Assembly (NCBI GenBank): GCA_002731695.1
Contig: PCCK01000057.1
Location: 1 to 43,689, forward strand
Direction of reading: 5' to 3'
Length of the DNA: 43,689 bases
DNA from: Porticoccaceae bacterium
GTDB lineage: Bacteria > Pseudomonadota > Gammaproteobacteria > Pseudomonadales > Porticoccaceae
Shown: piece by piece, positions 3,430-37,292 of the stretch
Layout: every line of letters begins with the position of its first letter
Position numbering within the stretch: position 1 is the first letter of the stretch
The notes under the pieces: model-generated
Told to the model about the DNA's origin: nothing
The model's input: the letters and a program-made list of their open reading frames with translations, nothing else
The model's database searches: none
Position numbers and translations under genes: made by a program

Positions 3430-3550
3430 TTAATTGCTACAGGAACCCTAACTGAGGAGCGTATGGTGTACCCTTTGGCAGAAAAGTTGAATGACACGCT
3501 TCGGAGCTAAACTTAAATTCAATTAGCTGACGCAACGCTGTGTTGCTGTA

Positions 3551-3766
3551 TTAGTATAGCCTAGTGAACTTTCGAGATTCTCTGGAGACCTTTTTTTGAT
3601 TCCTCTTAACCGCTGCAGCCGCCTTTCGTTTTCGTTCCCACGTAGGTTTCTCATAAAATTCGCAACTTCTTACTTTTGCCAGTATTCCGGCTTTTTCACA
3701 TGACCTTTTGAACCTACGAAGCGCTATATCAAAGGGCTCATTTTCTTTTATACGCACGCTTGGCAT
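3551..3766 (-). CDS. rpsU: Small ribosomal subunit protein bS21
   Basis: This 71-residue, very basic protein is bS21 of the 30S subunit, which helps base-pairing between mRNA and the 16S rRNA 3' end. It is full length and keeps the family signature: [20 protein letters not shown], then a C-terminal Lys/Arg-rich tail ([17 protein letters not shown]). The start is an ATG preceded by an AGGAAG ribosome site about 8 bases upstream. It is the first gene of the rpsU-dnaG-rpoD operon, with a good sigma-70 promoter 66-94 bases upstream (3832-3860). It diverges from tsaD, as in most gammaproteobacteria. Confidence 0.97.
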
Positions 3767-3831
3767 TGAATTAACTTCCTGTTTACCACCTTCTTATGAA
3801 GAATCGTGGATTTTATTTAATAAAGGTTAGT

Positions 3832-3860
3832 AGTATAGCGAGTAATTTTTTATCATGCAA
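3832..3860 (-). promoter_or_regulatory. Predicted sigma-70 promoter of rpsU-dnaG-rpoD
   Basis: On the minus strand a -35 box TTGCAT (3860-3855) and a -10 box TATACT (3837-3832) are separated by exactly 17 bases. The -10 differs from TATAAT at one position. It lies 66 bases upstream of the rpsU start and is the best promoter match in the window. Transcription from it has not been shown. Confidence 0.7.
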
Positions 3861-3896
3861 AGATTCTAAAGCTTAAGTTTATGAGATCATAGGTGA

Positions 3897-3925
3897 TTGA
3901 ATAGGTAACCTTAATACCCAATATA
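3897..3925 (+). promoter_or_regulatory. Predicted sigma-70 promoter of tsaD-folB-folK
   Basis: A -35 box TTGAAT (3897-3902) and a -10 box AATATA (3920-3925) are 17 bases apart, about 78 bases upstream of the tsaD ATG. With the rpsU promoter it makes a compact divergent promoter region in which the two -35 boxes are about 37 bases apart. Confidence 0.5.
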
Positions 3926-4002
3926 CGCATGAGTAAAATTTGAAAAATAATTTATTGAGTGTAAGTATCACAAATTTACAGTGATTGACGGAAATTAGAG
4001 AA

Positions 4003-5037
4003 ATGCGCGTTTTAGGAATTGAAACCTCATGTGATGAGACAGGCATCGCGCTATACGATAGTAAGGCAGGATTATTAGCAAATCGTGTTTACTCTCAGGC
4101 CCATATTCACTCTGATTTTGGTGGAGTTGTTCCAGAGCTTGCCTCGCGCGATCACGTAAATAGAATATTGCCGTTAATATCGTTGGTTTTAAGAGATATC
4201 TCTCTTAAAACGACTGATTTGCATGCAATTTCGTACACGAGAGGTCCGGGGTTAGCTGGGGCTCTTATGGTGGGGGCTGGAGTGGCATCATCATTAGCCT
4301 TCGCTTTGAATATTCCAGCATTGGGCGTACACCATATGGAAGGCCATTTATTGGCGCCAATGTTAGAGGAGGACCCTCCAAAGTTTCCTTTCATAACACT
4401 GTTAGTTTCAGGAGGGCATACCCAACTAGTCCATGCTGAGGCTTTCGGAAAATATAGAATTATAGGAGAATCGAGAGATGACGCAGCCGGAGAGGCATTT
4501 GATAAGATAGCCCAGATAATGGGTTTAGGGTATCCCGGAGGTGCCGAAATTTCGAGAATGGCTCAATTTGGCGATATGAATCGATTTAATTTCCCGCGTC
4601 CGATGACTGACCGTCCGGGACTTGATTTCAGCTTTTCTGGGTTAAAAACTCATACTAAAAAGTTAGTCTTAGATAATAGCCAAGAGGGGGGCTTGCCTCA
4701 CCCTAACACCATCGCGGATATCTGTGCCGGACTTCAAGAAGCGATAGTAGATACATTGGTCGTGAAGAGCTTACGGGCGCTCCGAGTAGAGGGTTTGTCG
4801 AAGTTAGTTATTGCTGGAGGTGTAGCTTCTAATGCTAGATTACGTGAAAAGCTTAGTAATATGGTTTTGGACATTGGTGCGACAGTTTTTTATGCGAGGC
4901 CCGAATTTTGTACCGACAATGGGGCAATGATAGCCTATGCTGGTTGTCAGCGGCTACTTGCAGGAGAATCTAGTAGTCTATCGATTTCCATAAAACCGCG
5001 TTGGCCAATTTCCTTGCTATCGGTCGTGGGAGACTGA
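4003..5037 (+). CDS. tsaD: tRNA N6-adenosine threonylcarbamoyltransferase
   Basis: TsaD transfers threonylcarbamoyl from TC-AMP to A37 of tRNAs reading ANN codons, making t6A, together with TsaB and TsaE. The 344-residue protein begins with the typical [19 protein letters not shown] and carries the metal-binding pair H111 and H115 (HHMEGH). It also has the nucleotide-binding stretch [11 protein letters not shown] and a C-terminal [16 protein letters not shown]. The start was set at the ATG at 4003, because the family begins at this methionine; a TTG 18 bases upstream in frame would only add six unconserved residues. It is followed after 6 bases by folB, and both are probably co-transcribed. 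The TC-AMP synthase relative in the window is YciO (27800), which is not the canonical partner TsaC. Confidence 0.97.
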
Positions 5038-5043
5038 AAGTAT

Positions 5044-5409
5044 ATGGACATAGTTTATATATCAGATCTTCAAATAGAGACTGTGATTGGCATTTTTGAT
5101 TGGGAGAGGGAGGTGAAGCAAGTTGTAAGTCTCGATATCGAAATGGCAACAGATATTCGCAAGGCTGCGGACACTGACGATATCCAATTTGCGCTCAACT
5201 ACAAAGCTATTGCAAAAAGAGTCATTAAGTTTATACAAGAAAGTGACTTTTTTTTGGTTGAGCGGATGGCTGAGGAGGTTGCAAAGCTAATCATTCAAGA
5301 GTTTTCAGTAACTTGGATACGTTTGCGGGTCAGCAAACCTGGTGCGCTCAGGGGCTCAAAGGATGTGGGTATAATAATAGAGCGCGGAGCAAAAGCCTCT
5401 TGTCTTTGA
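5044..5409 (+). CDS. folB: Dihydroneopterin aldolase
   Basis: FolB converts 7,8-dihydroneopterin to 6-hydroxymethyl-7,8-dihydropterin and glycolaldehyde in folate synthesis. It is full length at 121 residues. It shows the usual opening (IVYISDLQIETVIGIFDWER), the substrate-binding tyrosine in FALNYKAIAKRV, the conserved glutamate in FFLVERMAEEVA and the catalytic lysine in VSKPGALRG. The ATG lies 6 bases after tsaD. Its TGA stop overlaps the likely TTG start of folK, which makes the next step of the same pathway, so the two are probably translationally coupled. Confidence 0.95.
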   Translation: MDIVYISDLQIETVIGIFDWEREVKQVVSLDIEMATDIRKAADTDDIQFALNYKAIAKRVIKFIQESDFFLVERMAEEVAKLIIQEFSVTWIRLRVSKPGALRGSKDVGIIIERGAKASCL

Positions 5410-5921
5410 TTTACTTGAGTCTTGGAAGCAACATTGATGCCGCGAAAAATATTCACTCTGCTTTAGATAACTTAGAGCAGCACTTCGGAATATGTTTGAT
5501 TTCTTCCGTCTATGAGAGTAAATCTTTAGGTTTCCATGGGAAAAATTTTCTAAATTTAGTAGTGACAATCGAGTCCAATCTGCCCATAAATGAGCTTTTG
5601 AATGTCTTAAAAAAATTTGAGGATTTACTTAAAAGAGATAGGAGTGCACCAAAATTTTCAAATCGTACCATCGATATAGATATCTTATGCGTTGATGACC
5701 TTTCGGGAAATTTTGATGGCATTCATTTGCCTCGCGCGGAGATTCTAAAAAATGCGTTTGTATTATTACCTTTGGCCGAGATTGCTCCAGATTGCAAACA
5801 TCCTTGTACCGGATTAACTTACTCTGATCATTGGCAGATGTTTAACATGGGATTTCAATCGCTGTGGAAGGTGGACTTTCTCTGGCGCGGAGAACAAATC
5901 AGTTTCAGGCAATATACCTAA
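5406..5921 (+). CDS. folK: 2-amino-4-hydroxy-6-hydroxymethyldihydropteridine pyrophosphokinase (HPPK)
   Basis: FolK transfers pyrophosphate from ATP to the FolB product, preparing it for dihydropteroate synthase. The conserved protein begins IYLSLGSNI and has the Mg-binding aspartates in RTIDIDIL, which match RTLDLDI in other HPPKs. No ATG lies near the conserved start. The TTG at 5406 overlaps the folB stop in the sequence TTGA and gives 171 residues, close to the usual length; a TTG at 5400 would add two residues. The reading frame stays open upstream to 5313, but that part is folB in another frame. A short hairpin (5916-5935) straddles its stop codon. Confidence 0.9.
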   Translation: MIYLSLGSNIDAAKNIHSALDNLEQHFGICLISSVYESKSLGFHGKNFLNLVVTIESNLPINELLNVLKKFEDLLKRDRSAPKFSNRTIDIDILCVDDLSGNFDGIHLPRAEILKNAFVLLPLAEIAPDCKHPCTGLTYSDHWQMFNMGFQSLWKVDFLWRGEQISFRQYT

Positions 5922-5935
5922 GGCTTCTCTTAGGT
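5916..5935 (+). terminator. Weak hairpin at the folK stop, possible terminator
   Basis: ACCTAA (5916-5921) and TTAGGT (5930-5935) pair perfectly around an 8-base loop and are followed by TTATTATAG. The stem is only six mostly A-T pairs and includes the folK TAA stop, so termination strength is doubtful. It sits in the 28-base space between the convergent folK and folM-like genes. Confidence 0.35.
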
Positions 5936-5949
5936 TTATTATAGAAAGG

Positions 5950-6699
5950 TCAAAGAAGACTATTGGATGCGCCTCCATCAACTGCGATAGTTTGTCCAGT
6001 AACGTATGTTGCGATATTTGACAAAAAAAATGTTGTCTCTGCTATATCAGACTCTGAACCCAGTCGGCCAATTGGTATAGAGGAGAGGATTTTTTTGTGT
6101 TTGACTTTATCGTCTTTCTCATGTGCTGGCCATAAAATTGCTCCCGGAGCCACACTGTTTACCCTCACGTCAGGTGCAAGCTCAAGGGCTAATGATTTGG
6201 TCATGGCAATATTACCAGCTTTGGCGATGGTATATATAGAGTGTTTTTTAAGGGCTTGTCTAGCGTGCATATCAGAAATATTTACTATGGAACCCCGACT
6301 CCTTTTAAGCAAAGGTGCGAGTTTTTTGCTTAAAAAGAATGGACCTTTAAGATTAGAGTTGATTAAGTCATTCCAAGCACTTTCATCAACGTTTTCAAGC
6401 GCTGTAGGATAAAAACTGGAAGCATTATTCACCAGAACATCAAGCCGTCCTATTGACTCAAGTAGATTTATTATTCTCTCAATGCTTGCGGGTTCATTCA
6501 AATCGCCCTGCACTAACCAAGCGCTTTCTGAACGTTTTTCATTTAAGGTATCGCAAAGTCGGTTAGCCTCAGCCGCAGATTTATTATAGTGGATAATGAC
6601 TTTGAAATTCCTTGAATGGAAGACATTTGTTATTTCAGAACCAATACGCTTAGCGGCGCCCGTTACCAGTATTACTTGGGTACTTCTCGATTCGAACAT
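5950..6699 (-). CDS. Short-chain dehydrogenase, pteridine reductase type (FolM-like)
   Basis: A 249-residue SDR probably reduces dihydropterins or dihydrofolate with NADPH. The cofactor motif is TGAAKRIG, whose KRIG ending is typical of pteridine reductases rather than the TGxxxGIG of ordinary SDRs. NNAS, a conserved serine in VNISD and the catalytic pair in IYTIAKAG (YxxxK) follow, with VDGGAS near the C terminus. The ATG at 6699 has an AAAAGG ribosome site about 6 bases upstream, inside the end of cca, so the first 50 bases overlap cca. It converges on folK, which supports a pterin role. FolM is the likely orthologue; substrate preference cannot be read from sequence. Confidence 0.85.
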   Translation of the reverse strand: MFESRSTQVILVTGAAKRIGSEITNVFHSRNFKVIIHYNKSAAEANRLCDTLNEKRSESAWLVQGDLNEPASIERIINLLESIGRLDVLVNNASSFYPTALENVDESAWNDLINSNLKGPFFLSKKLAPLLKRSRGSIVNISDMHARQALKKHSIYTIAKAGNIAMTKSLALELAPDVRVNSVAPGAILWPAHEKDDKVKHKKILSSIPIGRLGSESDIAETTFFLSNIATYVTGQTIAVDGGASNSLL

Positions 6700-7936
6700 T
6701 TTTAACCTTTTCTTCTCTAGTTACAGAAAAATGATAAGTTAATTTAAACTCGTCAAGAGCTTGGAGGCGTTTTATTTTTATTAAATCTCCAATTTCATCT
6801 CCTTTAAGAACGTTGCGAAGTATATCTGATACGTCAAGATTGGCTACTATTTTTTGCGCTGCTCTCAAGAAGGATGATATCTTGGGCGTATGGCTTGACT
6901 GAGTTTTAGCGGCTAAACAAATTAGTAAGTTTTCAAATTCGACATTTGATTGAATGGCGTTGACGCTTAGCAAAATTCTGAGTATTTCCTCCGAACTTAG
7001 TCTGTGAATTGTTTGGGGTAATTTTCGACAACGGTTTACATTTAAAGCAAGTCTTCGAAATTTGCTGGGAACTTTTAATCGATCACAGAGCTCGGCTAAC
7101 AGAGCTCCATCTTCTTTCTCTTCAACTAACTCCAGTTGAGTATTGGATTCTTCAGTTTTGTGGTTAATTTCGGAAAAAGTGGCTGCGAATCGAACCATAA
7201 CGCTCTCGGATAATTGAGCTGCGGTTATCAAAGAGTTTAAAGGGTTTTTCATCGACGATTTCTTTCTGTTGTAGCTAGAATCTTGTGATATTTTAATGGT
7301 CGCGTCTAATTCTGGTATCAAAGCCTCCAACGCCCCGCATTGATGCAAAATTTTGAAGTATATGTGGGGAGTTTTTTCTCCTAGAGCTTTTTGTGTTTCC
7401 CTCCAGACACGCTCGGCAACCAAAAAGCCGAGTTCTCCACTCGATGCCATCTCTTGCATCATTGAAATTGTGGGTTTGGCAATACGGAAACCAAGATGAT
7501 GGTAGCGCGCAGCAAAGCGTGCTGTGCGAAGAACTCTGACTGGGTCTTCACGAAACGCGCTCGAAACGTGGCGTAACTTTTTTTTTCTAATGTCTTTTTG
7601 ACCGTGGAACGGATCTATAAGGTATCCGTCAGAACTCTCTGCGATCGCATTTATCGTGAGATCTCGGCGTCTTAGATCATCTTTCAGTGTCACTTCGGCG
7701 GATGAAAAAAAAGTGAAGCCATGGTATCCATATCCGGTCTTCTTTTCGGTGCGTGCTAGCGCATATTCTTCTTTACTAATCGGATGTAAAAATACAGGAA
7801 AATCCTTCCCGACCGGACGGAAGCCAAGTTCGATCATTTTGTTTGGGGAGCCACCCACAACGACCCAATCATTTTCATTACTTGGATAATTTATTAATTG
7901 GTCTCGTACAGCTCCTCCAACACGATAAATTTTCAT
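6650..7936 (-). CDS. cca: CCA tRNA nucleotidyltransferase, with altered DxD and no HD motif
   Basis: Cca adds or repairs the 3' CCA of tRNAs. The start was placed at ATG 7936, giving MKIYRVGGAVRD as in E. coli; an in-frame start 60 bases upstream adds unconserved sequence. The 428 residues include VGGAVRD, RRRDLTINAIA (about 89-99), REDPVRVLRTARFAARY (about 129-145) and the HLGFRI and RVWRE neck region. Two points are odd. The catalytic DxD of the nucleotidyltransferase fold reads E21-N-D23. The C-terminal part, which in E. coli is an HD phosphohydrolase domain (CHDLGKG), has FSEINHK at that place and no paired His-Asp. The gene overlaps the next SDR by 50 bases. Confidence 0.93.
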   Translation of the reverse strand: MKIYRVGGAVRDQLINYPSNENDWVVVGGSPNKMIELGFRPVGKDFPVFLHPISKEEYALARTEKKTGYGYHGFTFFSSAEVTLKDDLRRRDLTINAIAESSDGYLIDPFHGQKDIRKKKLRHVSSAFREDPVRVLRTARFAARYHHLGFRIAKPTISMMQEMASSGELGFLVAERVWRETQKALGEKTPHIYFKILHQCGALEALIPELDATIKISQDSSYNRKKSSMKNPLNSLITAAQLSESVMVRFAATFSEINHKTEESNTQLELVEEKEDGALLAELCDRLKVPSKFRRLALNVNRCRKLPQTIHRLSSEEILRILLSVNAIQSNVEFENLLICLAAKTQSSHTPKISSFLRAAQKIVANLDVSDILRNVLKGDEIGDLIKIKRLQALDEFKLTYHFSVTREEKVKNVRIEKYPSNTGNGRR

Positions 7937-30989: not shown

Positions 30990-31751
30990 TCACAATTGGG
31001 CGTGTATTGTTTTTCCGTTGATCCCAAGACTATCATCACCAAGCAAGTACAGGTATGCCCAAGTAATTTGATCGGCGCTTATTAAGTTAGTTGGATTTTC
31101 TGCAGGATACGCTTTTGAACGCATTGCCGTGCGCGTAGGTCCTGGATTAATGGCATTAATCCTAAGTTTCCCCAAGTTTTCTTGTTCCGCGGCCCAGCCT
31201 CGCATAAGTGCCTCCACTGCACACTTTGAAACGGCATATGCGCCCCAAAATGCGCGCCCCGCTTGCCCTGCTCCAGAGGTGGTGAAAATGACAGATGCGC
31301 CATGACTGGATTGTTCTAGAAGAGGCATTAATGATCGAGTGAGCAGAAACTGCGCGGTTGCATTAGTGTGAATTACTTTTTCCCAGAGCTCTGACTTGTA
31401 TTGGTTAAGCGGCATCCTATCTCCCAGAATCGCTGCGTTATTCACTAACCCATCCAAAGCTCCGAACTGGACCTCTACTTGATTTTTTAATTCAACGTAG
31501 TCAGAGTCTTTTGCATACTCCAAATCGAGAGGACATATCGCTGCTCTGGGACCCGCTTTGCGCAATACTTTGTCGTAAGTACTCTCAAGAGAATTGATGT
31601 TGCGACCCGCAAGCAATACTGTTGCGCCATGCTGAGCGATTGAAATCGCTACGGCTCTCCCAATCCCACTACCTGCGCCAGTAATCAAAATAACACGTCC
31701 GCTCAATAAATCACTCGGTGCTGTGTATGAGGAGATAGGAAACTTTGTCAA
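30990..31751 (-). CDS. yciK: YciK family SDR oxidoreductase
   Basis: A 253-residue short-chain dehydrogenase. It has the NAD(P)-binding ITGAGSGIGRA, the NNAA motif with the following AILGDRMPL, the catalytic serine region FTTSGAG and the YAVSKCAVEAL active site (YxxxK). INPGPTRTAMRSKAYP matches YciK proteins. The physiological substrate of YciK is not established. It begins 12 bases after mupP in the order ubiG-mupP-yciK that is conserved in Pseudomonas and relatives, which supports orthology more than the SDR motifs alone do. Confidence 0.9.
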   Translation of the reverse strand: MTKFPISSYTAPSDLLSGRVILITGAGSGIGRAVAISIAQHGATVLLAGRNINSLESTYDKVLRKAGPRAAICPLDLEYAKDSDYVELKNQVEVQFGALDGLVNNAAILGDRMPLNQYKSELWEKVIHTNATAQFLLTRSLMPLLEQSSHGASVIFTTSGAGQAGRAFWGAYAVSKCAVEALMRGWAAEQENLGKLRINAINPGPTRTAMRSKAYPAENPTNLISADQITWAYLYLLGDDSLGINGKTIHAQL

Positions 31752-31763
31752 TCTTCCAGTTCC

Positions 31764-32420
31764 TTAAAAAAGAAGATCAAAGAGTTTCTTAGGAGTAAGT
31801 GTAATCCAGTTGGCATCCCAATAAGAAATATTTTCATTTTCATTTATGTACCCCCAGGCAGCCACAATGGATCGCATCTTCGCATTTTTAGCCGCTAATA
31901 TATCTCTTGAATGATCGCCTATGTATATACACTCATCTGCCCTTAAGCCTAAATGCTTAATGCCAAGTTCCAGTGATTCGGGATGTGGCTTGGGCTCTTT
32001 AACATGATCGGAGCAGATCACACAGTGGGCACGATTAATTAGATTTAGTCTAGTTAACAAAAGCTCGGTATATAACCAGTGTTTATTTGTAACTACGCCC
32101 CATGGTATTGCTCTGAGGTCGCATTCGGTTAATATTTCGTTAATGTTTGGAAACATTTTCGTTTTCTTTCCAGCATGTTCAAAATAGATAGTCAAAAGTT
32201 CGCTCTGCAGTGTTTCGAAGTTTGAGTCGGTGGGTGAAATGTTAAATGCAAGTTCTAGTAATCCGATTGAACCATCACTAACTCTGTTCCGCACGGCCTC
32301 AGAGTCGAGCTGGACACGATCGTATCTTTTTAAGAGGGTGTTTATAGTGGTCACAAAGTCAGGTGCTGTATCAAGCACCGTTCCATCTAAATCAAAAAGT
32401 AGACCATTAAAATCGATCAT
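31764..32420 (-). CDS. mupP: HAD phosphatase, probable N-acetylmuramic acid 6-phosphate phosphatase MupP
   Basis: A 218-residue HAD-superfamily phosphatase. Motif I is FDLDGTVLDT (nucleophile D10, general acid D12), motif II GVVTNK, motif III the lysine in KEPKPHPE, and motif IV IGDHSRDI. It could be read as a phosphoglycolate phosphatase. The position between ubiG and yciK is that of MupP, the cell-wall recycling phosphatase acting on MurNAc 6-phosphate in Pseudomonas. The assignment rests on position as much as sequence, and no other recycling genes are in the window. Confidence 0.8.
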   Translation of the reverse strand: MIDFNGLLFDLDGTVLDTAPDFVTTINTLLKRYDRVQLDSEAVRNRVSDGSIGLLELAFNISPTDSNFETLQSELLTIYFEHAGKKTKMFPNINEILTECDLRAIPWGVVTNKHWLYTELLLTRLNLINRAHCVICSDHVKEPKPHPESLELGIKHLGLRADECIYIGDHSRDILAAKNAKMRSIVAAWGYINENENISYWDANWITLTPKKLFDLLF

Positions 32421-32444: not shown

Positions 32445-33146
32445 TTAGGTTAGTTTTTTCGCGTGAATAATGTAATTGACGTCCACTTGATCCGGCACAA
32501 GTTGGAAGTTCCTTGTGAAAGGATTAAAGGATAATCCAGTGATGGTCTCTATTTTTAGCTCAAATCCTCTAGCCCATTTGGCGAGTTCGGATGGTCGAAT
32601 AAATTTGTGGTGTTGGTGAGTTCCAATAGGCAGCAAGCGTAACAGATATTCAGCGCCCAATATAGCGAATATAGCCGATTTAACATTTCTATTAATGGTG
32701 GAGAAAAATACACTTCCACCGGGTTTGAGGAGTGTGGCGCAAGCCTCTACGACTGCAATCGGGTTTGGGACGTGTTCTAACACCTCCAAGCATGTAATTA
32801 TGCCAAATTTTTCAGAGTGGTTGGAGGCGAAGTTTTCTGCAGTTGAAAGTTGATAATTTATTTTTAGCCCAGATTCAAAACTATGTTTTTTAGCAATATC
32901 CAAGGCGGCTCGCGCAATATCAATTCCTGTGATGTTGCCTCCACGTCTGGCAAGAGCCTCTGATAAGATTCCACCTCCGCATCCCACATCCAAAACGTCA
33001 CAGCCCGCTATGGGTGACATTTGGTCTATCCAATTCGCTCGCAATGGATTGATTTTATGCAGCGCTTTAAAGTCTCCGTTGCAATTCCACCAATCGCTAT
33101 TAGTCGAGTTAAATTTCTTTACTTCGGTTAAGTCGATGTTATTCAT
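32445..33146 (-). CDS. ubiG: Ubiquinone biosynthesis O-methyltransferase UbiG
   Basis: UbiG makes both O-methylations of the ubiquinone ring using S-adenosylmethionine. The 233-residue protein has the family start (DLTEVKKFNSTNSDWWNCNG), the SAM-binding DVLDVGCGGGILSEALAR, GIDIARAAL and CLEVLEHVPNP. A C-terminal part follows with FSTINRNVKSAIFAILGAEY and HQHHKFIRPSELAKWARG, which is diagnostic for UbiG. The ATG is 30 bases after the amidohydrolase gene, and mupP follows 24 bases later. The presence of UbiG implies ubiquinone-based respiration. Confidence 0.96.
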   Translation of the reverse strand: MNNIDLTEVKKFNSTNSDWWNCNGDFKALHKINPLRANWIDQMSPIAGCDVLDVGCGGGILSEALARRGGNITGIDIARAALDIAKKHSFESGLKINYQLSTAENFASNHSEKFGIITCLEVLEHVPNPIAVVEACATLLKPGGSVFFSTINRNVKSAIFAILGAEYLLRLLPIGTHQHHKFIRPSELAKWARGFELKIETITGLSFNPFTRNFQLVPDQVDVNYIIHAKKLT

Positions 33147-33176: not shown

Positions 33177-34496
33177 TTACAAATCAACATTAATCGCACT
33201 TTTTGCCCAGTTTTTACGTTTTCGTAGCAAGAGCTCTTCATTCAATGTCTCAAGATTACCATTTATCATCAGGGGCCGGCCTCCAACAAAGCTGTGGGTG
33301 ATCCGATGATTATAACTTTTATGCACTAATCCGGCCGCAAGGTTGTTAATAGTTTGCTCTTCAATGTAATTAATTTCAATTGCGATAATATCGGCGAGTT
33401 TGTTGGGCTCAAGTGTCCCAATTTCTTCCTGCCAACCCAGAGCTGTCGCTCCGTCTAGAGTAGCCATACGAAGTGATTGATGCGGTGATAAAGACAAACC
33501 ATAGTTGGTTGATGCTTTGCTTAGCAGCAATGCGAATTGTAAATCATTGAACAAATCGAATGAAAGATCTCGTGTGAATCCACCAGACCCTAGTGCAACA
33601 TTAATGCCCATCTTTTTAGCCTCCTCAAGTGGACGGAATCCAACTGTTTGTATGAGGTTGAATCGAGGACAATAAATAATGTGACTATTAGACTCTTTCA
33701 AGAGTAGTAAGTCGCTTTTTTCAAGTTGAGTTATATGAGTCAATTGACTTTGCGGTGTGAGGAGTCCACATTCCGCTAATCTTTGAATTGGTCTTGCATT
33801 GAAGTTTTTCGTTGAAGATGAAATTTCTTCAAGGCTGTTGTGCGCATCGATTTGTAAAGGAAGTTCTATTTCATGAACATAGGTGGCTAGATCGGTGAGT
33901 TTATCATTATTTAATGACGAGATTGATTGTGGTGCGCAAGCCACTCTTACATGTGCGCTATCCTTGTAATCATCAAACAGTCGGAGACCGTCACTCATCT
34001 GAGATTCCCAGCTGTTATTGATTAGCTTTGAATACTCGGTCATGGGAAAACTAATTTGACTTCTCATTCCACACTCTCTGACGACGTTTGCCGCGATATT
34101 TGAAAAAAGGGCTAAATCCGCGAAGCATGTTGTACCAGTCTTTATCATTTCGGCGATGGCAATTTGCGTTCCATCACGCACGAGTTGAGGAGTAATTGAA
34201 TATCTAGCCAGCACCTTTGGTAAGGTTTCAGAGCAATCGTTGTTAGGCTGCTTAAAAATGATTTTTGCTAGTATATTCAAGGATGCGTGAGTGTGGCTGT
34301 TGATCAGCCCCGGCATAACTAAGTGTCGGTCCAATGAATAGGTTGCGGCCGCTTCGAACTTCTCTAAAGCCTCTGATTGTTCGCAAATTGCGATTATTCT
34401 CTGATTATGAATTGCAATTGAGACCCTCTCAAACACATGGTTTTCTGGACTTATTGGAATGACCCACCTACAGTTTAGTAAAGTATCAATAAACAC
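33177..34496 (-). CDS. MtaD-like TRZ/ATZ amidohydrolase lacking several active-site residues
   Basis: A 439-residue protein aligns along its whole length with 5'-methylthioadenosine/S-adenosylhomocysteine deaminases: MPGLINSHTHA, IAEMIKTGTTCFADL, LTHITQL, SLRMATLDGATALGW and GTLEPNKLADIIAI. The first metal pair is present (H68, H70), and so is H254. By eye alignment, however, the third metal His (first His of HLHET) is Asp at 217, the catalytic Glu is Asn at 220, and the metal Asp of GTDG is Gly at 305. So it is probably not an active deaminase of this type. The start was set at GTG 34496, preceded by AGGAGGTG with five bases between GGAGG and the start. It lies upstream of ubiG, as mtaD does in Pseudomonas. 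Confidence 0.85.
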   Translation of the reverse strand: MFIDTLLNCRWVIPISPENHVFERVSIAIHNQRIIAICEQSEALEKFEAAATYSLDRHLVMPGLINSHTHASLNILAKIIFKQPNNDCSETLPKVLARYSITPQLVRDGTQIAIAEMIKTGTTCFADLALFSNIAANVVRECGMRSQISFPMTEYSKLINNSWESQMSDGLRLFDDYKDSAHVRVACAPQSISSLNNDKLTDLATYVHEIELPLQIDAHNSLEEISSSTKNFNARPIQRLAECGLLTPQSQLTHITQLEKSDLLLLKESNSHIIYCPRFNLIQTVGFRPLEEAKKMGINVALGSGGFTRDLSFDLFNDLQFALLLSKASTNYGLSLSPHQSLRMATLDGATALGWQEEIGTLEPNKLADIIAIEINYIEEQTINNLAAGLVHKSYNHRITHSFVGGRPLMINGNLETLNEELLLRKRKNWAKSAINVDL

Positions 34497-34499
34497 TGG

Positions 34500-34507
34500 C
34501 ACCTCCT
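34500..34507 (-). promoter_or_regulatory. Full-length ribosome binding site of the MtaD-like gene
   Basis: The minus strand reads AGGAGGTG, a perfect complement of the 16S rRNA tail, followed by CCA and the GTG at 34496. An alternative GTG at 34502 is part of this site and has no spacing. The position therefore decides the start at 34496. It is the strongest ribosome site seen in the window, on a gene whose product seems catalytically impaired. Confidence 0.6.
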
Positions 34508-34592
34508 CATGCCACTCAAGGATTACCCGCTGCTACATCTATGTTACAACGGATTTTGAGAATTTTCTGAACTCGATCGTTCATTTCTCTCG

Positions 34593-34724: not shown

Positions 34725-37292
34725 ATGAGTAATTTGGCGAAAGATATTGTACCCGTCAAGATTGAAGAAGAACTGAAGCAATCTTATCTTGATTACGCGA
34801 TGAGCGTGATAGTAGGGAGAGCATTGCCTGATGTTAGAGATGGGCTCAAGCCGGTCCATAGAAGAGTGCTTTTTGCGATGCACGAGTTAAATAACGAGTG
34901 GAATAAGCCTTACAAAAAATCTGCTCGAATCGTAGGTGATGTTATTGGTAAGTATCATCCTCACGGTGATAGTGCGGTCTATGACACCATTGTTCGTATG
35001 GCACAATCATTCTCGTTACGACACATGTTAATCGACGGACAAGGAAATTTTGGCTCAATCGACGGTGATTCTGCTGCTGCAATGAGATATACCGAGATTC
35101 GAATGACGAGGATAGCGCATGCGTTGCTCGAGGATTTAGATAAGGAAACAGTTAACTTTCAACCCAACTATGACGAATCTGAGTCAATACCAGTCGTCAT
35201 GCCTACTCGCATTCCAAACTTATTAGTAAATGGATCGTCGGGCATCGCGGTGGGTATGGCAACTAACATACCACCTCATAATCTCTCGGATATTATCAAA
35301 GGGTGTCTCGCTTTGATTGAGAACAACGAGATCACTATTGATGAGTTAATGGAACATATACCCGGACCTGATTTCCCAACCGGCGCAATAATCAATGGAA
35401 GAGCTGGCATTGTTCAAGCCTATAAGACTGGGAGAGGCCGGATATACGTTAGAGCATCAGCGAGTGTTGAAATTAACGATAAAAGTGGTCGAGAGTCTAT
35501 CATTGTCACGGAGATTCCATATCAGTTAAACAAAGCACGCTTAATCGAGCGAATTGCGGAACTGGTGAAAGAGAAAAAGATTGAGGGAATTTCTGAATTG
35601 CGAGACGAGTCAGATAAAGATGGATTACGAGTTGTTGTCGAAATCAAGCGAGGAGAGATTGGTGAAGTTGTGCTAAATAATTTATATGCACAGACTCAAT
35701 TACAAAGCGTGTTTGGAATAAATATCGTTGCATTAGTTGATGGTCAGCCAAAGATTTTAAATCTCAAGGAATTACTTGAGGCTTTTATTTCGCATAGACG
35801 CGAAGTAGTTACCAGACGTTGTATTTTTTTGTTACGGAAAGCGCGTGCGCGGTCACATACCCTTGCCGGCTTTGCAATAGCTCTGGTAAATATTGATATC
35901 ATAATATCTGTTATTAAAAACGCTGAAAATCCCGCTGAAGCAAGGGCGGCACTTTTGGGGAGAGCGTGGATTCCGGGTTCGGTAGAGGCGCTACTGGAGA
36001 GAGCTGGTAATGAGTCTTCGGTTAATATTTTCCCTAGCGAAGATGGATTTGGATTAATCGATGGACAGTATTATTTATCTCCTAATCAGGCTCGCGACAT
36101 TCTCGATTTAAGATTACATCGTCTTACAGGTTTGGAACAACAAAAAATATTGGATGAGGCGACGCAAAAGTTTGATGAGATATCAGAATACCAGAACATC
36201 TTGTCAGACACCCAAAAGCTAATGGCTGTGATAAAGGATGAATTGGAGAGTGTTATCACGGATTTCAGTGATCCGAGGAGAACTCAGATAGTGGAATCAC
36301 AGCATGATCTCACTGTCGAGGATTTGATTGCTGAAGAAGACCGGGTAGTTACCATATCTCATGGGGGGTATGCGAAAACACAGCCTCTCTCCGACTATCA
36401 AGCACAAAGACGCGGTGGAATGGGTAAATCTGCTATTGCGGTGAAAGAGGCCGATTTTGTGGAGCACTTATTAATTGCAAGCACGCACGCAACGATACTA
36501 TGCTTCACGAGCGCCGGAAAAGTATATTGGCTAAAGGTGTATCAGATTCCTGTTGCTAGTCGGAACTCGAAGGGCAGGCCGGTGATAAATTTACTTCCGT
36601 TAGATGCTGAAGAAAGGATAAACTCTATATTGCCAGTTGAGGGCTACAGCGTCGACCATTACGTCATCATGGCAACAGCTAATGGAACAGTAAAAAAGAC
36701 GCAGCTATCTCAATACTCTAATCCTCGCAAGGCAGGGTTGCGTGCGGTTGAGCTTGTTGAGGGAGATGTTTTAGTTGGGACTGCTGTGATAAGTGATAGG
36801 CAAGATATTATGTTGTTTAGCAGCGAAGGCAAAGCAGTTCGTTTCGCAAGCTCAGATGTGCGTCCGATGGGTCGTGTATCAAAGGGAGTCAGAGGTATGC
36901 GGCTGACAGATGGAGCCAAAGTGATTTCGATGGTCATACCAGAAGAAAATGGGTACTTGTTGACAGTTTGTGATAATGGATTTGGTAAACGTACCGAATG
37001 TTCGGAGTTTCCGACTAAAGGTCGAGGTGGAAAAGGAATGATTGCCATTCAGGCAAGTGATCGCAATGGCCCACTTGTGGGTGCGACTCAACTTTTTGCT
37101 GGAGATCAAATAATGTTGATTTCAGATCAAGGGACAATGGTAAGGACGCGCTCTGAGGAAGTTTCAGTGGTCGGTAGAAATACGCAGGGAGTAAGAGTGA
37201 TTCGTTTAAAACACAGTGAGCGTTTGGTGAGTTTAGCGCGAATTGCTGAAGCGGAAGAAATGGATATTCTTGAAAGATCTGATGGGGCTTAA
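34725..37292 (+). CDS. gyrA: DNA gyrase subunit A
   Basis: GyrA is the cutting and rejoining subunit that introduces negative supercoils with GyrB. The 855-residue protein has the catalytic Y122 (AMRYTEIRM), the quinolone-determining region [20 protein letters not shown] with the sensitive-type S83 and D87, and a coiled coil. The C-terminal beta-pinwheel (about 530-850) carries the GyrA box QRRGGMG near residue 561, so this is GyrA and not ParC. The ATG has a GGAG site 5 bases upstream. The next gene is pheA, 23 bases later; serC, usual between them in Pseudomonas, is absent. Confidence 0.98.

Follow-up and report, generated by a model that had tools for sequence, protein, structure and literature searches.

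The window, a stretch of 43,689 nucleotides that forms one contig of a 2.35-Mb genome, encodes a full length ortholog of the MtaD-family deaminases that has lost part of the catalytic set of the family. This protein, together with its counterparts in five Porticoccaceae relatives (clade A), is probably a pseudoenzyme that selection retains for some non-catalytic property, and its working part is more likely the β-sandwich than the barrel. The reading, drawn from sequence comparison, is based on the positional orthology of the gene, a missing partner enzyme, the changed catalytic residues, purifying selection and a sandwich under tighter constraint than the barrel. Pseudoenzymes are mostly encountered after the transition is complete; in this marine family several stages coexist at a single syntenic locus, and the same genomes also reveal the likely trigger, namely loss of the partner enzyme. 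The family allows one to ask when a stranded enzyme is discarded and when another use preserves it.

Marine Porticoccaceae are the nearest named relatives of the window genome, and the SAR92/HTCC2207 group lies close by. The altered gene lies between divergent gyrA and ubiG (Table 1), the order also found among intact relatives. The same order is present at all 20 loci that carry an altered gene, which makes the altered genes orthologs and not paralogs. The names ubiG, gph/mupP-like, yciK-like and gyrA are those that we presume for the neighbouring genes. Two records titled Flavobacteriaceae TMED48 and Acidimicrobiaceae (loci L059 and L118) carry the gammaproteobacterial gyrA-mtaD-ubiG order, and it looks as though their titles or bins are wrong.

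The frame given in the open reading frame list (33177–34502, minus strand) is open throughout, and residue numbers are counted from 34502, the real first residue being residue 3. The start at 34496 given in the original prediction is preferred, given that the GTG chosen first by the ORF tool, at 34502, sits within the AGGAGG site itself. A short hairpin (TGGCAT/GTGCCA with the loop GAGGAG; 34497–34514, minus strand) covers this Shine-Dalgarno sequence directly before the GTG.

Table 1. Features of the mtaD locus in the window.
Feature	Position	Strand	Basis or remark
MtaD-family amidohydrolase ortholog with an incomplete catalytic set	33177..34496	-	439 aa, GTG start; frame and family matches
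Shine-Dalgarno AGGAGG	34502..34507	-	5 nt before the GTG at 34496; overlapped by a small hairpin
β-sandwich, N-terminal half (residues 5–62)	34317..34490	-	Predicted secondary structure; stays constrained; limits set by the authors
H70-T71-H72, retained HxH pair	34287..34295	-	His-Thr-Tyr in 3 of 6 clade-A genomes
D219 replacing metal-ligand His	33846..33848	-	Asp or Cys within clade A
N222 replacing catalytic Glu	33837..33839	-	Alignment
H256, retained third His	33735..33737	-	Clade-A comparison
G307 replacing metal-ligand Asp	33582..33584	-	Within clade-A motif GSGGF(S/T)RDLSFD
β-sandwich, C-terminal half (residues 371–432)	33207..33392	-	Predicted secondary structure and constraint; limits set by the authors
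ubiG, ubiquinone methyltransferase	32445..33146	-	Next gene downstream of mtaD, 30-bp gap; ORF list; same place in 20 of 20 altered-gene loci
gph/mupP-like phosphatase	31764..32420	-	Gene 3 of the run; ORF list, locus comparison
Short-chain dehydrogenase (yciK-like)	30990..31751	-	Gene 4 of the run; ORF list, locus comparison
gyrA	34725..37292	+	Divergent upstream neighbour anchoring orthology; ORF list, locus comparison

Membership of the amidohydrolase superfamily is clear from a match to Pfam PF01979 (Amidohydro_1) of 128.7 bits, against a gathering cut-off of 25. The more specific NCBIfam model NF006549/PRK09045 (MtaD-type TRZ/ATZ hydrolase) gives the window protein 359.5 bits, under its curated cut-off of 540; three intact relatives score 628–697 bits with this model and six altered proteins, the window's included, 353–492. 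The protein is full length, as first described from the sequence. Its frame is open and full length in all six clade-A genomes, and the window protein aligns to the solved P. aeruginosa enzyme (4dyk/4gbd, E 3e-74) with no gap in the relevant stretches. In this alignment the residues opposite D219, N222, G307 and Q192 are His, Glu, Asp and His, respectively. The three losses called in the original prediction, of a metal-ligand His (of the HLHET motif), the catalytic Glu (of the same motif) and a metal-ligand Asp (of GTDG), are therefore correct, and the His at position 192 is lost in addition. Both His of the HxH pair (H70 and H72) and the third ligand His (H256) are still present. Positions 219, 222 and 307 are H, E and D in each of 81 intact rows (79 family genomes, one second copy and one genome from another family), and we take their TM0936 counterparts to be His200, Glu203 and Asp279, with numbers from the original prediction, and that of H256 to be His228. 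Ordinary zinc-deaminase chemistry would be expected to fail in such a protein, and altered mtaD genes should not be annotated as working deaminases. The accompanying statement that the rest of the fold is conserved was too strong: of 108 positions at which 93% or more of 49 intact relatives agree, the window protein retains 59 and has changed 49.

Six catalytic positions (70, 72, 219, 222, 256 and 307; HHHEHD when intact) were read across the family. A match to mtaD at E 1e-30 or better was present in 103 of 112 genomes; the gene was intact in 79, full length but altered in 20, broken in frame in one and unjudged in three (two contig-edge fragments and one with unread bases). The 20 altered orthologs show 12 residue combinations: HHDNHG, HYCNHG and HHCNHG in clade A (six genomes, window included), QCREHE in clade C (four genomes), HHNEHD in locus L071 of genome G004, HHQEEA, HHLEGS, HYLEGS and QNQEGV in clade D (the UBA7375 type, five genomes), RDQTHS in clade E (two genomes), and YQLEGD and DQVNGA in genus g13. 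All 14 genomes examined from the window's genus, its own included, carry a full or nearly full length copy. At L071 (6001–7287) Asn has replaced the ligand His, the only one of the six catalytic positions affected, and a few residues close to the HAPYT stretch are lost, with the Glu and Asp kept; the protein may still be an active enzyme and possibly a living intermediate. In G108 the gene is intact at the readable catalytic sites with a broken frame, and at this locus (L142, about 3544–7599) mtaD matches in three pieces and the adjoining gyrA in two overlapping ones, within an assembly of about six contigs; these breaks look like residual indel errors and not biology.

A sequencing, binning or gene-calling artefact was considered for the clade-A changes, given that MAG appears in the record titles of four of the five relatives named in that clade, and was rejected. 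The combination of N222 and G307 is common to all six clade-A genomes, in assemblies of different species with conserved gene order, which makes chance or sequencing error unlikely. Moreover, the records of AG-907-E05 (clade A) and AG-905-B21 (clade C) are not titled MAG, and their names are presumably of the single-cell-genome type.

The number of separate losses was approached with trees. On an mtaD tree computed with the motif columns left out, A, C and D each form one clade (100/100) on long stems of 1.02, 0.71 and 0.93, respectively. A fast tree of five neighbouring genes places D and E together (100) with g13 adjoining (83), apart from the genus of A, C and L071, indicating two separate losses or more. 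Clade A plus L071 and clade C may represent one loss or two, depending on the placement of the intact clade B, on which the neighbour-gene trees disagree: one has C beside A plus L071 (83), whereas the fast tree has clade B in that place (99.4) and C outside. Clades A and C are joined on the mtaD tree (81/89), with a warning of long-branch effects. The differing residues suggest, without proving, more than two loss events.

The altered gene also coincides with a missing partner. In P. aeruginosa, methylthioadenosine (MTA), a waste nucleoside, is recycled by MtaD-type enzymes; the review PMC6302742 describes a route there of deamination and then phosphorolysis. A methylthioinosine/MTA phosphorylase (TIGR01694) was matched in none of the 14 genus genomes and in 10 of 14 control genomes, and mtnA (TIGR00512) in none of the 14 and in nine of the 14 controls. 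Across the family, 50 of 112 genomes have a match to the phosphorylase model at E 1e-20 or better, and just four of these matches exceed the curated cut-off. Matches occur in 46 of 79 genomes with intact mtaD versus none of 20 with an altered gene (Fisher p 5e-7, a value overstated given that related genomes are not independent). The remaining 33 genomes with intact mtaD have no phosphorylase match, which fits an order in which loss of the partner came before loss of the active site. SpeE is a source of MTA, and among the 14 genus genomes speE was matched only in G004, the genome of L071; ahcY was matched in all 14, over the cut-off in 11. No MTA/SAH nucleosidase (TIGR01704) exceeded the cut-off in 38 genomes, a weak negative since seven of 14 control genomes also fell under it. 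A second deaminase that might replace MtaD in the window genome (G000) was considered and not seen: the two other amidohydrolase matches listed for that genome score as 8-oxoguanine deaminase (640 bits against a cut-off of 532) and guanine deaminase (580 bits against 375).

On these observations, the window protein would be a vertical descendant of an MtaD deaminase that was stranded once the surrounding salvage route had vanished. With the partner lost, deamination would no longer have been beneficial and the pocket would then have drifted; in the sequence, further residues of the pocket are changed besides the two metal ligands and the catalytic Glu. The benefit left would be binding or scaffolding involving the β-sandwich, and selection would act on the folded protein for something other than catalysis. 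The molecule bound might, as a guess, be an operon neighbour such as UbiG.

Selection on the altered genes was measured between pairs of relatives. Values of ω (dN/dS) for mtaD since the loss were 0.29–0.34 in clade A (four pairs), 0.19–0.25 in clade C (two pairs) and 0.20–0.27 in clade D (two pairs), and ω = 1 was rejected in each (likelihood-ratio statistic 15–122 across these pairs). No stop or frameshift is present in the mtaD sequences of the six clade-A genomes, and neutral simulation of six pairs added a mean of 4–22 stops per pair against zero in the real sequences. The window protein thus appears as an enzyme homolog without catalytic residues under purifying selection, the pattern of a pseudoenzyme, and the finding that relatives share its changes under purifying selection, which the original prediction had named as support for a new role, agrees with the kept non-enzymatic or changed role first proposed for it. 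For intact mtaD, ω was 0.02–0.16 in eight control pairs and 0.08–0.10 in two clade-B pairs. The clade-A neighbours ubiG, gph and the short-chain dehydrogenase gave 0.12–0.49 and gyrA 0.07–0.09, all above most controls, so that ω of clade-A mtaD ranges from slightly below to 2.7 times that of the first three and is about four times that of gyrA.

The excess of clade-A ω over that of intact genes is what would be expected if the protein were idle and its gene on the way out, as in related streamlined genomes, with the frame still open since stops would be polar on ubiG and a misfolded protein costly. Such slow decay deserves weight but is unlikely as the account of the window gene. For clade D, and possibly for clade E, it is the preferred explanation. 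In clade D, three to five of the six catalytic sites are gone, mtaD evolves at 5.5–10.5 times the rate of neighbouring genes (three genomes), and the neighbours have very low ω (ubiG 0.00–0.03, gyrA 0.02–0.03), making the clade-D gene clearly relaxed. Outright deletion also speaks for decay: in three genomes gyrA and ubiG stand next to each other without mtaD, less than 200 bp apart in G016 and in G117 and roughly 600 bp apart in G074. In G076 (L219, 3334–3767) a remnant of approximately the first 72 and last 70 residues lies between gyrA and ubiG, with the barrel gone. These four genomes represent three lineages on the fast five-gene tree, and deletion in at least three related lineages means that any role of mtaD is dispensable there; in the other five genomes without the gene, the ubiG match is absent in three and a contig edge intervenes in two. 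For clade A, however, polarity alone would not hold amino-acid changes at ω of 0.2–0.3, and the rate of mtaD relative to its neighbours stays near that of intact genes, although the faster neighbours of clade A qualify this comparison. The suggestion of very recent decay in the original prediction is not supported for this clade, as the six species that have N222 and G307 in common now differ at up to about a quarter of residues.

The distribution of constraint within the protein points again towards a pseudoenzyme whose working part is the β-sandwich. In intact proteins the ratio of sandwich to barrel differences has a median of 1.48 (5–95% range 1.14–2.04), with 1.5% of 816 pairs at or below 1. 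In clade A all 15 pairs fall at 0.30–0.79, which by our count amounts to about five independent contrasts, and the ratio is also below 1 in clade D (0.53–0.97, 10 of 10 pairs), clade E (0.89) and g13 (0.82). Relative to neighbouring genes, the clade-A sandwich evolves at 1.36 versus 2.57 in 107 intact pairs and the barrel at 2.06 versus 1.61, although part of the slowing of the sandwich may be due to the faster neighbours in clade A. The corresponding rates for clade D are far higher (sandwich 5.35, barrel 9.07; three pairs) and those for clade C near intact (2.14 and 1.75). Of 26 active-site positions of our own choosing, 16 are invariant in clade A, 18 in C and nine in D, compared with 23–26 in six sets of intact sequences (three to six per set), though only 20 in intact clade B. 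Conservation in clade A is lowest in segment 81–100 (0.30), a segment that intact groups conserve (0.55–0.75) and that the structure model predicts with some of its lowest confidence. Counting against the pseudoenzyme reading are the raised ω of clade A, the deletions in related lineages, the sandwich to barrel ratio of clade C, which is not reversed (1.01–1.54 in six of six pairs), the 20 of 26 positions in clade B and the dependence of the structure model on intact homologs.

The most conserved segment of the clade-A protein is residues 301–317 (0.82 invariant), around the nearly fixed motif GSGGF(S/T)RDLSFD at residues 305–316. This would suit a changed enzyme in which H70, H72, Asp or Cys at 219 and H256 hold zinc or another metal and the loop serves a new substrate or reaction. 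Asp and Cys are themselves metal-capable, and with the remaining His, including H256 kept in six of six genomes, either could supply the substitute ligand at position 219 whose existence the original prediction had named as grounds for refuting it; no equivalent was found for D307 or E222. A new activity is nevertheless improbable, with both of these residues gone, H72 replaced by Tyr in half of the clade and positions 219, 221 and 223 variable within it. A working pocket should moreover be constrained, and that of clade A falls short of intact samples in the positions counted above.

A bolder proposal is that loss of the salvage route in Porticoccaceae repeatedly freed MtaD from catalysis and that clade A at least rebuilt it as a non-catalytic, sandwich-based partner protein, perhaps for UbiG. 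This is doubtful as a whole; if true, intact enzymes, orphaned but intact ones, pseudoenzymes, fading copies and deletions would all coexist within the family.

Among known systems the closest in family is the P. aeruginosa MTA deaminase, which we take to be PA3170. It shares 30% identity, the HxH pair and the third His with the window protein, which differs in having no equivalent of one ligand His, the ligand Asp or the catalytic Glu, in a genome with no phosphorylase match. AlphaFold2 with 63 sequences predicts a TIM-barrel fold (pLDDT 87.7; TM 0.93 to 4gbd). As most of that alignment (49 of 63) consists of intact relatives, and the six clade-A sequences alone give a pLDDT of 35, the fold is a deduction from homology and not an independent result. 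In the literature searched, which covered the field partially and included few subscription papers, no report of an inactive MtaD was found. The nearest confirmed precedent is the P. aeruginosa pseudo-dihydroorotase, described in PMC7053772 as an inactive, retained amidohydrolase-type chain needed for the activity of its aspartate transcarbamoylase partner. It belongs to another subfamily and has an identified partner, whereas the MtaD loss was reached by several lineages with differing residues. The superfamily fold is shared more widely, with TM values (by query length) of 0.75–0.88 to TrzN/AtzA and guanine deaminases, which are only 16–20% identical to the window protein. These are active metalloenzymes that work on other substrates. 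A more distant amidohydrolase, 21–24% identical, was also observed in some members of the genus, at L031, L032, L033, L034 and L038 (genomes G009, G007, G005, G003 and G012, respectively).
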